DNA of 64,000 nucleotides, taken from assembly GCF_000174815.1 (NCBI RefSeq), contig NZ_ACNN01000005.1, forward strand, positions 1 to 64,000, given 5' to 3'. This stretch comes from Porphyromonas endodontalis ATCC 35406. Lineage in GTDB: Bacteria; Bacteroidota; Bacteroidia; Bacteroidales; Porphyromonadaceae. The notes beneath the pieces are model-generated. The model was not told the origin of the DNA, ran no database searches, and worked only from the letters and a program-made list of their open reading frames with translations. Positions 3,181-55,275 of the stretch are shown here, piece by piece. The translations under genes and the position numbers were made by a program. Every line of letters begins with the position of its first letter. Within the stretch, counting starts at the first letter, position 1.

Positions 3181-3369
3181 CTGACTTATGCCTGGGGAGG
3201 GTGGGAAGCGGCAGGGGAAAGCCGAAGTCCCTTGCCGGGCATGGCAGGCCTGTAGCGGTACACCTATTACATATAAGGGGCGTATTGTCTCATACGTTCG
3301 TTGGTTTATTGTATGGGGAGAGTTGCTCGTAATCGCTTCTATTCCCGGATTGATCCCCTCGAAGAGCTT

Positions 3370-3437
3370 GCCCTAGGGATGAAAATTTCTTGGGCGGCGA
3401 AATTTTGAGTATAGGGCGGAAAGGAAAAGAATTAGGC
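3370..3437. repeat. 22-bp periodic intergenic array (copy 1, dnaX/tpl)
   Basis: GGC/GCC clusters at 3370, 3393, 3415 and 3435 are separated by A/T-rich DNA at steps of 23, 22 and 20 bp; another GCC at 3502 is in phase (three periods further on). On the minus strand a unit reads GCCCAAGAAATTTTCAT, close to GCCCAAGAATTTTTTCAT in the 9.5-kb array. It lies in the 528-bp gap between divergent dnaX and tpl, between their promoters. The rest of this gap (3181-3369) holds nothing I can support. Confidence 0.6.
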
Positions 3438-3527
3438 TGTATTATATTCCGTTTTTGTGAGTGATTTATTCATTTTCTTATCGTTTTGGTGTCATTTTGC
3501 TGCCTGATTGATGTATATTTTGCCTAA

Positions 3528-9473: not shown

Positions 9474-9482
9474 GCAAATCCT

Positions 9483-9598
9483 TGCCCAAAAGTTGTCTCC
9501 CTTTTTGCCCAAGAATTTTTTCATTTCTGCCTGATTTTCTCAGAAATCTTGCCCTAGACTTTTTTATTTTCCACCCTGCGTTTTTAGAAGTTCTACCC
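9483..9598. repeat. 22-bp periodic intergenic array (copy 2, best example)
   Basis: Six tandem degenerate units begin at 9483, 9506, 9528, 9550, 9572 and 9594 (steps 23, 22, 22, 22, 22). Each starts with TGCCC or a one-to-two-base variant and continues into a T-rich tract; the rough consensus is TGCCC-N5-TTTTTTATTTTC. The array fills almost the whole gap between the SufT-like gene and lpxH and ends 28 bp before the lpxH start. Confidence 0.85.
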
Positions 9599-9625: not shown

Positions 9626-10411
9626 GTGATTTACTTTACAAGCGACGCGCACTTAGGTTCGCACTATCACCCTGATGCTTCGGCTGTGGAGCGTAGGTTG
9701 GTGGCTTGGCTGGATGCAATTGCACCCGATGCCGAGGCCATCTACTTTTTGGGAGATATGTTCGATTATTGGTTTGAGTATCGTCATGTGGTACCCAAGG
9801 GCTATGTGCGTTTCCTGGGTAAGGTGGCCGAGTTGGCAGACAAAGGGGTGGAGATTTATTTCTTCCAAGGAAATCATGATGTGTGGATGCGCGATTACTT
9901 CGAAAAGGAGTTGGGCGCACACGTTGTAGATCATGCCATGGAGGTGCAGTTGGGCGGAGCTACTTTTCGTCTTTCACATGGGGATGAGGAGTATCGAAAG
10001 GAGCGTTGGGTTAATGATGCGATGTACAGGCTTTTCCGTGCAAGGTGGGCACAACGGCTTTACGCTGCCGTGCATCCGCGTTGGACGGTAGGGCTGGCTC
10101 TCGGGCTTAGCGAGCGGAGTAGGCGAAAGGGGCTGCAGAAGCAGTCTGCCACTTATGGGGGCGATAATCCCTATTTTCACCTCGAGGATGAATGGTTGGT
10201 GCGTTGGGTTAAAGCTCGCCGTGAGCAATTCTCCCATGTACAATACTTCCTCTTTGGACATCGTCACTTGCTGGTAGATCTGATGCTGGGAGAGGGGCAG
10301 CGGCTCCTTATCTTGGGAGATTGGCTTCATTACAATAGCTATGCAGTGTGGAACGGTCGGGAGCTTTCTCTTGAAACGTTTGAGCTATCCGACCTTCCAA
10401 TGAATGGATGA
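9626..10411 (+). CDS. lpxH: UDP-2,3-diacylglucosamine diphosphatase
   Basis: A calcineurin-like metallophosphoesterase (261 aa) that removes UMP from UDP-2,3-diacylglucosamine in lipid A synthesis, at the inner membrane surface. The metal-binding motifs are SDAHLGSH, GDMFDYWFEY, GNHDVWM, SHGDE and FGHRHL, in the expected order. The start is GTG at 9626, directly at the first beta strand (IYFTSDAHLG), and I see no better alternative. The gene is preceded by the 22-bp array rather than a recognisable promoter. With the LptD-like protein and acpP in this window it shows a lipid A-bearing outer membrane. Confidence 0.92.
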   Translation: MIYFTSDAHLGSHYHPDASAVERRLVAWLDAIAPDAEAIYFLGDMFDYWFEYRHVVPKGYVRFLGKVAELADKGVEIYFFQGNHDVWMRDYFEKELGAHVVDHAMEVQLGGATFRLSHGDEEYRKERWVNDAMYRLFRARWAQRLYAAVHPRWTVGLALGLSERSRRKGLQKQSATYGGDNPYFHLEDEWLVRWVKARREQFSHVQYFLFGHRHLLVDLMLGEGQRLLILGDWLHYNSYAVWNGRELSLETFELSDLPMNG

Positions 10412-15809: not shown

Positions 15810-15931
15810 TACAGGTCTAAGGAGGTGGAGATTTCCTTCCCGAGAAGCCTATTGGGCTAGAGGAGAAAAGAAGAGAAAATAAGGGGATAGAGCAGAGTAA
15901 CACAGGAGGGGAGGGGATGTTTTTTTTGTTG

Positions 15932-15939
15932 TATCTTTG
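15932..15939 (+). promoter_or_regulatory. -7 element immediately upstream of an uncharacterised gene
   Basis: TATCTTTG, 8 bp before ATG 15948. There is no TTG at the expected -33 spacing, only a T-run. If used, the transcript would be leaderless or nearly so. Confidence 0.4.
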
Positions 15940-15947
15940 CCCAAGTT

Positions 15948-16592
15948 ATGCAGAAGAGAAACTTCGTTCACCCTTTGTTTGTGGGCTTATTCACCTTTCT
16001 TTGGATAGCTCTACCCCATTCGTCCCTCCGGGCGCAGTCTTTGGAGGAGCTTATCGTAGCTTTACCTGAGGGTACAATCCCCTTTTTGGATGTTGAGGCT
16101 CGCGAGTCTCTGCTAAAAGCCGAGCCTACGCAGGAGGTGGAGGTACAGGCCTTGGGGGCTCTTCTCGTACTCAAGGTGGAGGATCGAACCAAGCGTTTCC
16201 TTTCTTTCGGAACGGGAGTACTTTCTTTTGAGATGGTTGCTTTACCTCATAGTGGAGGGGATATCCTTTGTTGTATTGCCACGATAAAGGAGCCGTTTGT
16301 CTACTCAAGCATTTCCTTTTTCAATAAACGCGGCGAGACGCTTCCGCCCGAGAGCTTTCTGCCGAGCTGCCCTATAACCGATTTGCTTTTACCTGAAGCA
16401 TCCGATCAAGATAGAGCAAAAGTTTTTGGGCTTTCGCGCTATATTTTTTTCTCTTCTAGCGAAGAAATTTTGAATGTCTCGCTCGTGCCGGAGAGTGCTC
16501 CTACGGAGGAAAAAAAAGAGCATTGGCGCACCCTACTACGTCCGGAACCCCTTCGTCTAAAGTGGAGGCGTAAAGCTTTTCAACTTAAGTAA
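15948..16592 (+). CDS. Exported protein of unknown function (possibly DUF3256)
   Basis: 214 aa with a clear signal peptide (residues 1-29, ending SSLRA-QS). The mature part begins with SLEELIVALPEGTIPFLDVEARESLL, which resembles the start of the Bacteroidota DUF3256 family (a protein of about 200 aa with a similar 'maximum of N residues, then short beta strands' layout). That assignment is from memory and is weak. It contains a CC pair (DILCCIAT) and a single Cys near FLPSCP. The C terminus is basic. It lies 39 bp upstream of the membrane coiled-coil gene, so the two are probably cotranscribed. No enzymatic motif is visible. Confidence 0.7.
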   Translation: MQKRNFVHPLFVGLFTFLWIALPHSSLRAQSLEELIVALPEGTIPFLDVEARESLLKAEPTQEVEVQALGALLVLKVEDRTKRFLSFGTGVLSFEMVALPHSGGDILCCIATIKEPFVYSSISFFNKRGETLPPESFLPSCPITDLLLPEASDQDRAKVFGLSRYIFFSSSEEILNVSLVPESAPTEEKKEHWRTLLRPEPLRLKWRRKAFQLK

Positions 16593-23712: not shown

Positions 23713-24645
23713 ATGGAGCCTACACCCCAACATAAGTTACGTGGTTTGCTGATTGCCGGTACCTCTTCGGTGGCTTTCGGCTTTATCCCCCTTTTTACGT
23801 TGCCTTTGATGGCGATAGGGTTGCGTACCCCCTCCATCCTTACCTATCGCTTTTTGTTTGCAGCCCTTGCCATGTTTCCTCTTTTGCTGTACAAAAAGAT
23901 TGATCTTAGGCTCACAGCGCGAGAAATCGGGGTTTTGCTCTCTTTGGGACTTGTCTATATTGCCTCAGCTATGGGGTTGCAGTTGGGGTATCATTATATG
24001 CCGAGTGGGGTGGCCACAGTAGTCCATTTTACCTATCCAGTCTACGTTATTTTACTCATGTTGCTCTTCTATAGGCAAAGACCTACGAGGATTATGATTC
24101 TAGCCATTCTCCTTGCTTTTTTGGGGGTGCTGTGCCTCTCGGGCTTGGGATTGGAGAAGGTGGATCGGCGATTTTTGATAGGGATGCTCATTGTCGCTCC
24201 TACGGGGTTGGCGTATGCCTCTTATATGGTTATTGTCAATAAGAGTGTGGTGCGTACGATGAATAATATCAAGCTTAGCTTTTATGCCCTGTTGGCTTGT
24301 GGGAGTGGATTCCTAGTGATTGCCCTCTTTTGGGGAGGCCTGCAAGGGATTCCTTCGCTTGAGGCCTGGGGTTTGACTATCGCCCTTGCGATTATCCCTA
24401 CAGTGGTTGCCAATATTACACTGGTGGAGGGGGTAAAGCTGATTGGCTCTACTATGAGTGCCATATTGGGAGCCTTGGAGCCTCTAACCGCTGTAGTGAT
24501 TGGTTTTTTGGTTTTCGACGAGGTGCTAACCCCTTTGCGTCTTGTGGGTATTCTTCTTATCATCCTTTCGGTACTCCTTATTGCCCTCTCGGGGCGTATT
24601 GCCTACTTTCTCAAGGTTTCGCACCTGCGCAAGAGGCATCGTTAG
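23713..24645 (+). CDS. EamA/DMT family transporter
   Basis: 310 aa with ten predicted membrane helices in two EamA repeats (about 10-145 and 155-295). The second repeat ends with the family signature (GALEPLTAVVIGFLVFDEVLTPLRLVGILLI), as in RhaT/YdcZ-type drug/metabolite exporters. The short C-terminal tail is basic. Substrate cannot be inferred. It starts 24 bp after the EEP gene and is followed by a strong terminator. Confidence 0.9.
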   Translation: MEPTPQHKLRGLLIAGTSSVAFGFIPLFTLPLMAIGLRTPSILTYRFLFAALAMFPLLLYKKIDLRLTAREIGVLLSLGLVYIASAMGLQLGYHYMPSGVATVVHFTYPVYVILLMLLFYRQRPTRIMILAILLAFLGVLCLSGLGLEKVDRRFLIGMLIVAPTGLAYASYMVIVNKSVVRTMNNIKLSFYALLACGSGFLVIALFWGGLQGIPSLEAWGLTIALAIIPTVVANITLVEGVKLIGSTMSAILGALEPLTAVVIGFLVFDEVLTPLRLVGILLIILSVLLIALSGRIAYFLKVSHLRKRHR

Positions 24646-24693: not shown

Positions 24694-24736
24694 GACTTGC
24701 CTCGCTTTTGTAAAAGAGTGGGGCGAGTCTTTTTTT
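24694..24736 (+). terminator. Rho-independent terminator after the EamA transporter
   Basis: GACTTGCCTC (24694-24703) pairs with GGGGCGAGTC (24720-24729) with two wobbles, followed by T7. The 22-bp array begins at the end of the T-run. Confidence 0.85.
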
Positions 24737-24852
24737 GCCTGTCGGCGTAATCTTTTCAGGCTAGAATGTAGTCGCCTTTCTGCCCAAAACTTTTTTATTT
24801 CTTAGGTGAAAGTGGAATGACATTCTGGGCAGGAGCGGAAAATATTTCAGCC
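24736..24852. repeat. 22-bp periodic intergenic array (copy 3)
   Basis: GCC/GGC clusters at 24737, 24759, 24782, 24805 (AGG only), 24828 and 24850 recur every 22-23 bp in both orientations. The unit at 24781, TGCCCAAAACTTTTTTATTT, closely matches units of the 9.5-kb array. The array abuts the terminator. The following 180 bp to the frameshifted gene hold only a weak -7-like TACCTTCG (24996-25003). Confidence 0.75.
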
Positions 24853-25032
24853 CGCTCCCTTTTCTCTCTTCCGCTAGAGGGGGGGCTTCCTCCAGATAAG
24901 AGATCGCTTCTTATAGATCAAAACCTCAGGCATAGACCTTTCTAATGCGTTAGCCCTGACATATGTCCTGTGGGGCAATTTTCATAACAAAAATGTACCT
25001 TCGCAGAAGATCAATGAGTTTCGTTTTTAATA

Positions 25033-26268: not shown

Positions 26269-26340
26269 GGCCCTTTCGTCTATCGGTTAGGACGCAAGGT
26301 TTTCATCCTTGAAAGAGGGGTTCGATTCCCCTAGGGGCTA
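26269..26340 (+). tRNA. tRNA-Glu (anticodon TTC), copy 1
   Basis: 72 nt without CCA. Acceptor GGCCCTT pairs with AGGGGCT (G-U at 1-72), anticodon stem GCAAGG...CCTTG with loop TTTTCAT giving TTC, T-arm GGGG-TTCGATT-CCCC, discriminator A. CCA follows in the DNA at 26341-26343 by chance or design. It is 39 bp upstream of rpsT, and the two are probably cotranscribed. Confidence 0.93.
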
Positions 26341-26781: not shown

Positions 26782-26853
26782 GGCCCTTTCGTCTATCGGT
26801 TAGGACGCAAGGTTTTCATCCTTGAAAGAGGGGTTCGATTCCCCTAGGGGCTA
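26782..26853 (+). tRNA. tRNA-Glu (anticodon TTC), copy 2
   Basis: All 72 positions are identical to copy 1 at 26269. The DNA after the discriminator is CAA, so CCA is not encoded. Followed at once by a strong terminator. Confidence 0.93.
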
Positions 26854-34351: not shown

Positions 34352-35338
34352 ATGGAAAACAGGCCTCACGAAGGCTTCAAGGGACTTAGCCCTTCTGCCA
34401 ATCAATCCGTTTTTATGTGGGCAATCTTGTTGCCTATTCTGTTGCTTACGCTTATTTTCGGGCGAGAGGCCTTGCCCTACTTGAGTGGGTTTTTAGGTGC
34501 TATTACCCTGTTCTCTATCTTGAGAGGGCAGATGAGATTTCTTACTAAGAAGTGGCACTTCCCTCGCTGGCTGGCCGCCTTCCTCCTCATCCTTGAGACC
34601 CTTTTTCTCTTCCTCCTCCCGCTCGCCGGTATTGCTTCTATGCTGATAGATTTGTTTACACACAATCATATCGACCTTAATGAATGGTACCACCAAGCTG
34701 TGCAGTGGGTAGATGAGGCCAAGGAATGGATTGGAGTAGATTTTGTGAAACGAGATGGATTCTTTGTTGAGCAGGTACTACCCGCCCTTACTAAGATGGG
34801 GCAAACCTTTACGACAAAGATCGTTGTCGGGGTTTATTCTCTTGTGGTCAATAGCGTTGTGCTGCTCTTTGTTCTCTACTATATGCTCTACGAACGAGAG
34901 TATTTCGAGACTGCTATCCGAGAATTACTCCCCTTTACAGAGGAAAATAAACGTATACTGGTATCCGAGACGCAGCGTATCATTGCGGCTAACGCTGTGG
35001 GGATACCGCTGATCGCCATTGTTCAAGGAGGATTCGCCTATCTCGGCTACATCTTTTTTGGTGTAGAGGGAGCACTTTTTTATGCTGTACTTACCGCCTT
35101 TGCTACCATCATTCCGATGGTGGGTACTATGGTCGTTTATGTCCCTCTCGCTCTGGCTTTTGGTTTTGCAGGAAACTGGGGTTCCTGTATAGGCCTTTTG
35201 ATCTATGGATTTTTGGTTATAGGGGGGATAGACAATGTAATTCGCTTCCTGCTCCAAAAGTCTCTTGCCGATATTCACCCTCTTGTTACCGTCTTTGGCG
35301 TTATTTTTGGGGTAAGTATTTTGGTTTTTGGGGTGTAA
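34352..35338 (+). CDS. AI-2E family transporter (PerM/TqsA type)
   Basis: 328 aa from ATG 34352; the frame is open from a TTG at 34328, but that overlaps the preceding stop. The family layout is visible: paired N-terminal helices (WAILLPILLLTLIFG, FLGAITLFSILRG), a soluble segment (about 100-155, NEWYHQAVQWVDEAKEWIG), and a C-terminal helical block with GIPLIAIVQGGFAYLGYIFFGVEGALFYAVLTAFATIIPMVG and a last GGIDNVIRFLLQ. Members export autoinducer-2 or act as Na+/H+ antiporters, and most are uncharacterised. Confidence 0.9.
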   Translation: MENRPHEGFKGLSPSANQSVFMWAILLPILLLTLIFGREALPYLSGFLGAITLFSILRGQMRFLTKKWHFPRWLAAFLLILETLFLFLLPLAGIASMLIDLFTHNHIDLNEWYHQAVQWVDEAKEWIGVDFVKRDGFFVEQVLPALTKMGQTFTTKIVVGVYSLVVNSVVLLFVLYYMLYEREYFETAIRELLPFTEENKRILVSETQRIIAANAVGIPLIAIVQGGFAYLGYIFFGVEGALFYAVLTAFATIIPMVGTMVVYVPLALAFGFAGNWGSCIGLLIYGFLVIGGIDNVIRFLLQKSLADIHPLVTVFGVIFGVSILVFGV

Positions 35339-35464
35339 TTTTTGGTCCTCTTCTCCTCTCTCTTCTAATACTTCTTCTGAATATATTCCGTCACGACTAC
35401 GTCCCCGGCTCTGTTGCTCAGCCTTGTGCTGCCCGAGAGAAGAGGGGAGGGTTGATGCCTAAGT

Positions 35465-35580
35465 GGGCAAAGAAGAAAAAAAAGTAGCCTCTTTGGCTGC
35501 TCCTTTCTGGCTGATTTTATTTTTCTTTTAGGCTGATTCTTTTGGAGAAATCAGCCTGTGCGGATTTTCTTTTAAGGCAG
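35465..35580. repeat. 22-bp periodic intergenic array (copy 4)
   Basis: GGC/GCC clusters at 35466, 35487, 35509, 35531, 35554 and 35576 (steps 21, 22, 22, 23, 22), in mixed orientation with T-rich tracts between. Two successive units start GGCTGATT. It lies in the 443-bp gap between the AI-2E-family gene and the wza-like gene; the rest of the gap shows nothing else clear except the -7 element at 35708. Confidence 0.75.
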
Positions 35581-35707
35581 GAGTAAATCTCGTGTCAATC
35601 CCCGCTGTACTAAAGAAATGTTACACCTTGTGCTAGCTCCTGGTTTATTTCTTTGTTATATCCCTTCATTAAAATAGTAGAAACGCTTCTTTCTCTAAGA
35701 AAAAGGC

Positions 35708-40046: not shown

Positions 40047-40138
40047 GCTGGTTTTCTTTTGATTGTAGGGCAGAATTCGATTACTTTTTGCCTAAAGAAA
40101 GAATTTCTCTAGGGCAGGATTTTTCTTGAAACAGGGCA
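40047..40138. repeat. 22-bp periodic intergenic array (copy 5)
   Basis: Clusters GCTGG 40047, GGC 40069, GCC 40090, GGC 40113 and GGC 40135 (steps 22, 21, 23, 22). On the minus strand units begin TGCCC at 40138, 40116 and 40072 (22 and 44 bp apart). Clusters of the terminator at 39959 and 39981 are nearly in phase. The array ends about 70 bp before the TonB-dependent receptor gene. Confidence 0.75.
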
Positions 40139-40194
40139 GAGGAAAAATATGAAGTCGCTGAGAGTTGTTCGTCCTTCTTATCCTTACAATTATC

Positions 40195-44095: not shown

Positions 44096-44168
44096 GGTGC
44101 CATAGCTCAGTTGGTAGAGCAAAGGACTGAAAATCCTTGTGTCCCCGGTTCGATTCCTGGTGGCACCA
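44096..44168 (+). tRNA. tRNA-Phe (anticodon GAA)
   Basis: 73 nt. The acceptor stem GGTGCCA/TGGCACC is perfect, D-arm GCTCAGTTGGTAGAGC, anticodon loop CTGAAAA, T-loop TTCGATT, discriminator A. CCA is not encoded. Confidence 0.96.
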
Positions 44169-54963: not shown

Positions 54964-55073
54964 CCTGTTTTTGTGGTTGCTCCCATGGGGATAGGCTTGC
55001 TACTATGGTGTAGTTGCGAGATAGGGACAGAGGAGAGGGCGTTGTACTAGGTGTGAAATGCGGAGAAAACGCT

Positions 55074-55165
55074 GCCTAGAAAAATTTCCGCCGTAGGCTG
55101 AAAATAAAAAGTTTCTCGGGCAGGAACGAAAAGTTTTTAGGCTGGTTTTGTAGGGGAAAACCAGC
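55074..55165. repeat. 22-bp periodic intergenic array (copy 6)
   Basis: Clusters GCC 55074, GGC 55096, GGC 55119, GGC 55140 and AGC 55163 (steps 22, 23, 21, 23). On the minus strand the unit from 55122 reads TGCCCGAGAAACTTTTTATT, matching the 9.5-kb consensus. It lies between divergent genes (lipoprotein and rarA). Confidence 0.78.
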
Positions 55166-55275
55166 TGCAAAAGAAAAGAGAATTACCCGGAGCTCCCAAG
55201 AGGCTCTAGCCCATTGCTTACGCCTGATGCTCCTTGTGGATTTTGTTGCGCGGGAGAATTAGAAAAAGAAATATG

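Follow-up and report, generated by a model that had tools for sequence, protein, structure and literature searches.

Tandem operator arrays of cooperative repressors and response regulators place dyads about two helical turns apart, so that they lie on one face of the DNA. Short tandem repeats of comparable length have been described in Porphyromonas itself. According to the part of Klein et al. 2015 (PMC4596501) used here, BrickBuilt consists of 23-nt repeats of P. gingivalis that are intergenic and carry IS5-type ends; some of its segments show bidirectional promoter activity, and it was without a BLASTn match outside P. gingivalis, homologues then being found in P. gulae. The same part of that paper cites earlier reports of 22-, 23- and 41-nt repeats. 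A literature search for an array pattern common to the genus found none, which is weak evidence of absence since few subscription journals were covered, and the portions consulted of PMC5771137 and PMC10969869 added nothing on other species.

Here we analysed a window of 64,000 nucleotides from Porphyromonas endodontalis ATCC 35406 (genome G000), followed by other genomes of the genus. An earlier note on this window had proposed a dispersed family of six intergenic arrays in which GGC or GCC clusters recur every 22 bp, and had mentioned tandem repeats of about this length from Porphyromonas, rightly so as far as the consulted part of PMC4596501 goes.

Arrays in the window and their rhythm in P. 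endodontalis

All six arrays are present where the earlier note had placed them, and a seventh was added. With a hidden Markov model (HMM) of the 22-bp unit, the six score between 9.8 and 26.4 nats. The features are as follows:

3338 to 3514, no strand assigned: array between diverging genes, dnaX (3104 to 1320, minus) and a tyrosine phenol-lyase/tryptophanase-like gene (3633, plus); HMM 10.5 nats
9475 to 9598, cores all on the plus strand here: six-core array (TGCCC, TGCCC, TGCCT, TGCCC, CACCC, TACCC; read directly), upstream of an LpxH-like gene at 9626 (NCBIfam); HMM stretch 9475-9585, 17.9 nats
15829 to 16005: seventh array, absent from the earlier list, overlapping the start of the open reading frame (ORF) 15948-16592; HMM 16.2 nats
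24728 to 24883: array downstream of a drug/metabolite-transporter-like gene (23713-24645); HMM 18.8 nats
35191 to 35587: HMM stretch containing the earlier-listed array 35465-35580, upstream of a polysaccharide-export-like gene (35653); HMM 26.4 nats
40059 to 40168: array with cores both ways round that extends as far as the start of a SusC/RagA-like gene (40149); HMM 9.8 nats and sequence
55021 to 55175: array with cores both ways round, upstream of a RarA-like ATPase gene (55281); HMM 14.4 nats and sequence

The first 37% of the stretch 35191-35587 lies inside the preceding ORF and may be an over-extension. The best array has its six units at 9483, 9506, 9528, 9550, 9572 and 9594, as had been described, in steps of 23, 22, 22, 22 and 22. 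The pattern quoted for it, TGCCC-N5-TTTTTTATTTTC, is exact in the unit at 9550 and nearly so in that at 9506; the other four units are without the full T tract, yet still have a common core (TGCCC, TGCCT, CACCC, TACCC). Tandem Repeats Finder (TRF), at a score of 30, lists none of the six arrays, and only a 21-bp two-copy row (35304-35346) adjoins one of them.

Two further observations concern the window. The array model scores 15.7 at 16337-16515, inside the ORF 15948-16592, which appears to encode a genuine exported protein without an NCBIfam match; this score is probably a chance effect of composition. Three tRNA genes are located at 26269-26340, 26782-26853 and 44096-44168, the first two with equal Rfam scores.

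The observation of phased intergenic arrays of about 22 bp is real and confirmed. An autocorrelation of G/C clusters, the check that the earlier note had proposed, gives an intergenic peak near 22 bp, genome-wide (464 kb) and beyond shuffles. Within the window, GGC/GCC pairs at lags 21-23 in the 20 intergenic regions of at least 50 bp number 28 against 11.4 expected, a count reached in 0/300 dinucleotide shuffles, and the single lags 22 (z 6.6) and 45 (z 5.2) stand out, with the second peak at 44-45. The 464-kb sample of G000 comprises the window and L026-L045, with 193 intergenic segments and genes called by a crude ORF rule. Its intergenic DNA holds 74 such pairs at lag 22 and 61 at lag 23 against about 31 expected, with 28 at lag 21 and 21 at lag 24 (background or below), and shows further peaks at 45, 67 and, weakly, 89 (z 2.3), whereas its coding DNA is without such a lag peak. 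Furthermore, the G+C autocorrelation follows five periods, reaching about 112 bp, and the periodogram peaks at 22.25 bp (z 14.1). With a rhythm of about 22.3 bp, the arrays share with BrickBuilt, as a MITE, the tandem unit of about 23 nt and the intergenic setting. The autocorrelation of AAAA/TTTT was not taken as proof, since clumping inflates its values.

A free Baum-Welch fit strayed to generic pyrimidine tracts and was dropped. With entry and continuation rates held constant, an HMM that allows the 22-bp unit in either orientation gains 935 nats, whereas three shuffles yield 180-195. At a cut-off of 8, the model passes 39 of the 185 intergenic regions on which it was itself trained and 1/196 coding pieces; when these 185 regions are shuffled, four times over, none passes. 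Trained on contig C18 alone, it finds 24/112 regions on contig C33, and none when these are shuffled. Together, the lag peaks and the HMM support the proposal that the arrays form a dispersed, intergenic family whose rhythm of close to 22 bp runs through the genome.

The distances between cores are 22 for TGCC-TGCC, 24 for TGCC-GGCA and 20 for GGCA-TGCC (the last from three counts only), which means that both orientations keep one phase, that of the CC/GG pair. This corrects the earlier reading, as does the difference in core between species described below. The orientation of neighbouring units in G000 is near random (ff 217, rr 173, fr 172, rf 171). Base identity within arrays is 33% at lag 22 and 25% at other lags, and the phase is far better preserved than the sequence.

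Array anatomy and a possible binding platform

The arrays of G016 allow a closer view of what is conserved. We counted 59 arrays in 600 kb, of which 30 fall in the 300 kb of fixed-step stretches, or about one per 10 kb, and 52 of the 59 span exactly four units. Among 159 gaps, 141 are of 22, 10 of 23 and 8 of 43-44, the latter having one unit under the score cut-off. Identity among the 47 arrays in exact register is 0.757 in the core, 0.458 in the spacer and 0.319 in the flank, with an information content of 1.17 bits for cores and 0.39 for spacers; the 6-bp spacers vary in sequence and hold their length. These arrays have the features of an operator array, namely same-face spacing, a conserved core and a less conserved spacer of fixed length; in G000, only phase and core are demonstrated. 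The centres of the outer units are TpA in 83/86 cases, those of the inner units CpG in 44/86 and TpA in 36/86, a difference that indicates sites with positional identity. In G001, 12 elements of 7-9 units carry two unrelated cores that succeed one another within one 21-22-bp register.

The earlier note had suggested selection on spacing rather than exact sequence. Spacing is indeed held while sequence drifts, most clearly in G016, and we infer selection on it; the cores, however, are too conserved within G016 (76% vs 46% in spacers) for the second half of that phrase to stand.

Our preferred reading, to which we give close to an even chance, is that the arrays are phased binding platforms for a putative protein whose specificity shifts from one species to another. 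Every unit, about 22 bp long, would offer one short core, often a dyad, and two helical turns per unit would bring the cores onto one DNA face, where protein dimers on adjacent sites could touch and, by cooperative binding, build a multi-site complex. The number of sites per complex would differ, with four for G016, between seven and nine for G001 and several for G000. The cores would need phase and not direction, allowing free orientation at fixed spacing, and the specificity of the protein would change together with its arrays between species, by co-evolution. The fixed phase and free orientation in G000, and the conserved cores and length-stable spacers in G016, fit dimers on one DNA face, while unrelated cores with one geometry fit either a protein of changed specificity or several proteins of one architecture. 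We count the positional identity of sites in G016 and the two cores sharing one register in G001 in favour of the platform. Against it we count the orientation in G016, which is non-random, given that 118/159 neighbouring pairs point in the same direction. A bolder version, in which an architectural protein seeds complexes with a set number of sites (four in one species, about eight in another) at hundreds of transcription-unit gaps throughout the genus, with the two-turn geometry kept and protein and sites re-coded per species, seems to us rather unlikely.

Could the arrays instead be transcribed and act as RNA, as hairpins or terminators? The G016 arrays (n=54) fold better than shuffles, with mean z -4.1 and -3.7 per strand, as palindromes must. 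However, the hairpin partners in 218 G016 cores are without covariation, with 7/8 pairs equal to shuffles and two partner pairs mostly mismatched (C-C 137, T-C 111), and the centre step alone covaries (TA 159, CG 49, CA 6, TG 4). The arrays of G000 (z -1.90 and -1.64) fold little better than array-free intergenic DNA (-1.43 and -1.46), and no Rfam family was found in the window beyond the three tRNAs. As such, we consider RNA elements highly improbable.

Distribution in the genus and tests for mobile elements

The unit pattern of the window was searched for in 26 genus genomes. Over whole genomes, G000 has 25 matches vs 2 for the reversed pattern and G017 14 vs 1; these two alone are clearly above control (G003 9 vs 4, G009 7 vs 10), and the pattern was rejected as general to the genus. 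The G016 unit is matched 391 times in its own genome and the G015 unit 168 times in its own, and neither has more than 2 matches in any other. Matches to the G001 unit number 160 in G001, 115 in G025, 27 in G021, 6 in G023 and 2 in G024, and at most 1 outside these relatives. The core sequences are species-specific, and the spacing of about 22 bases is constant. One genome can carry several unrelated 22-23-bp units, which counts against the platform, as one protein of one specificity leaves them unexplained.

Nine of the 26 genomes were sampled as stretches, of 160-464 kb each at the time of the periodogram. G000, G001 (21.5, z 10.2) and G016 (22.25, z 7.6) show a strong peak near 22, G017 a moderate one (about 4) and G005 and G003 weak ones (under 3); the G+C periodogram has no peak in G006 and none standing out in G015, which we count against the platform. 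The peak of G011, at 23, is not counted as strong support because it stems partly from a copied MITE. By TRF, each of the nine sampled genomes has noncoding tandem arrays with a period of 21-23, between 1 (G017) and 56 (G016) of them; this period accounts for 102/150 noncoding tandem arrays in the nine genomes, and for 0/10 in shuffles. Once all units carrying the main core of G016 or of G001 had been set aside, dyad symmetry in these arrays was modestly in excess (mean z 0.54, n=66). Both the arrays in nine genomes and the dyad excess are counted for the platform. Outside the genus we used RarA loci of other Bacteroidota (80 fetched, of which the Porphyromonas locus L119 was set apart, leaving 79). 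These short pieces from many species show no G+C periodicity near 22; 19/69 of their tandem arrays have a period of 21-23, against 1/11 in shuffles. The period alone is thus not special to the genus, and this too counts against the platform.

Some side observations were made in these sequences. Three G016 loci (L262:13991, L273:14040, L281:12916) carry other 22-bp tandem units that are unrelated to the main core and include the dyad CCCAAAACGTATACGTTTTGCG. By eye only, the G015 unit resembles the middle unit of G001/G024. Intergenic runs of CTCTAATCTCTAACCT (steps of about 7 bp) and GATCGGAGC (about 9 bp) fill many gaps at L155 and L154 (G023, G024) and also at L188 (G001). Among the other Bacteroidota, L076:19633, L072:1729 and L078:8406 each hold one tandem array with units of 21-22 bp, in some cases dyadic; these are possibly ordinary operators. 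G011 carries copies of an element about 200 bp long (L251:12339-13297, L252:5847-6442, L246:12054-12726 and others) with ends of the type GAGACCGTTGCA / TTGCAACAGTCTC, which resemble the ISPg4/MITE464 ends in the part of Klein 2015 (PMC4596501) used here; pairs of this element are about 95% identical over 200 bp.

The main rival to the platform reading is that the arrays are selfish, species-specific MITE- or REP-like elements with an internal 22-23-bp minisatellite, as in BrickBuilt, moved by a transposase acting in trans and having no host function; the shared period would then reflect how such repeats arise or are recognised. We regard this as a serious possibility, at well under even probability. 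G005, which we take to be P. gingivalis ATCC 33277 in agreement with its BrickBuilt units and ISPg3-type ends, has such units in steps of 23, with 37 in two arrays of L240. The 11 elements compared in G001 align over about 160-308 bp and fall into subfamilies with common flanks; they are therefore dispersed repeat copies, and this counts against the platform. Array regions forming pairs of at least 80% identity over at least 50 bp are 56/60 in G016, 8/8 in G001 and 5/5 in G015, but only 4/44 in G000 and 0/13 in G017. Copies alike including their flanks, as expected of a MITE, are found in G001 and not in G000 or G017. The unequal copy number of the G001 unit among relatives also speaks for selfish elements, the RarA of G023, G024 and G025 being 95-96% identical (a comparison excluding G001, G021, G007, G013, G010, G004 and G002), although part of that difference may be due to assembly gaps, the sequences of G021 and G024 being drafts in 250-310 contigs.

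In G000, a perfect 10-bp inverted repeat joins the ends of 0/40 arrays, BrickBuilt/IS5-type ends (four end words, at most one mismatch) occur at none within 200 bp of the same 40, and no common flank word is clearly above shuffles (6/40 vs 4). We count this lack of terminal inverted repeats and common flanks for the platform and against selfish elements. In G016, it also speaks against the latter that spacers of fixed length are far less alike than the cores and that only 7/1081 element pairs are at least 85% identical; a few pairs align past the 82-bp element (157 and 134 bp), which we count against the platform. A Y1 (RAYT-type) transposase, PF01797, is over cut-off in 3/26 genomes (G001, G016 and G023), two of which, G001 and G016, are those with large array families. 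This favours the selfish rival over the platform, yet the family is absent from the other 23, including G000, G015, G025 and G005. Both may hold, with elements that spread as repeats and were then retained by a binding protein.

Genomic location and comparison with known systems

The 40 arrays of G000 lie between diverging genes in 9 cases, co-directional genes in 21 and converging genes in 8, with 2 at edges; for the 54 G016 arrays of at least 3 units the counts are 12, 35 and 7. Of the G016 intergenic regions longer than 100 bp, arrays occupy 38/127 co-directional, 14/37 diverging and 7/38 converging ones. A sense TAnnTTTG box, presumably the Bacteroidota -7 element, is located between array and start codon in 22/33 leaders of G000 and 36/58 of G016; shuffles give 2.9 for G000 and 2.3 for G016, and the antisense strand 2 and 1. 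Many arrays are therefore upstream of a promoter, a location that we count for the platform, at a distance to the box of 6-296 bp in G000 and 54-261 bp in G016. Given that the arrays lie between transcription units, mostly upstream of promoters but also in converging gaps and at variable distance, an architectural or insulating role seems to fit better than that of a precise operator.

This location bears on a further alternative, in which the arrays serve as classical operators: an ordinary transcription factor, or several (e.g. phage-type or two-component), would bind the tandem dyads, and the number of arrays would simply reflect a large regulon. Dyadic cores, two-turn spacing, the placement mostly upstream of promoters, and some 21-23-bp dyad arrays in other Bacteroidota all agree with it. 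The occurrence of an array roughly every 10 kb in G016, the arrays in converging gaps (8/40 in G000, 7/54 in G016) and the widely varying promoter-box distance do not, and we think it improbable. At orthologous upstream regions, arrays are shared in 3/43 cases vs 3.1 expected, summed over ten species pairs and with little power, and at downstream regions in 1/38, again with little power. Sharing at chance level argues, within that power, against fixed targets and thus against operators; it also counts against the platform, and the want of a common location between species fits selfish elements.

Taken together, the arrays point to a DNA-organising protein or to an unusual mobile-repeat family. 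If geometry is truly conserved while sequence turns over, repeat and motif searches based on similarity would overlook elements of this kind in comparisons across species, and a DNA-organising factor whose specificity evolves fast would await discovery. If instead the selfish reading is right, the question becomes what makes repeats of unrelated sequence settle on a period of two helical turns.

How do the arrays compare with known systems? With BrickBuilt they share tandem units of about 23 nt, an intergenic location, several to many copies and dyad parts, and under the platform reading BrickBuilt of P. gingivalis and P. gulae would become part of a wider pattern. BrickBuilt differs in having direct repeats, a leader, a tail, IS5-type ends and one sequence, whereas the arrays of G000 are mixed in orientation, have drifted strongly, lack such ends and use a different core. 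REP/BIME elements with their RAYT transposases are alike in being species-specific, extragenic and present in more than 100 copies (for part of this, PMC2817692), and in having regularly spaced dyads in both orientations that are bound by protein, the protein here being putative. They differ in that the Y1 transposase occurs here in few genomes and not in G000, in that units recur every 22 bp in short arrays, and in the imperfect hairpin palindrome of REP, which neither the core pairs of G016, without covariation, nor the folding of G000, little above controls, reproduces. Tandem operator arrays, finally, offer the same geometry of dyads two turns apart; unlike them, the present arrays are dense in the genome, occupy converging gaps too and keep no fixed distance to a promoter.
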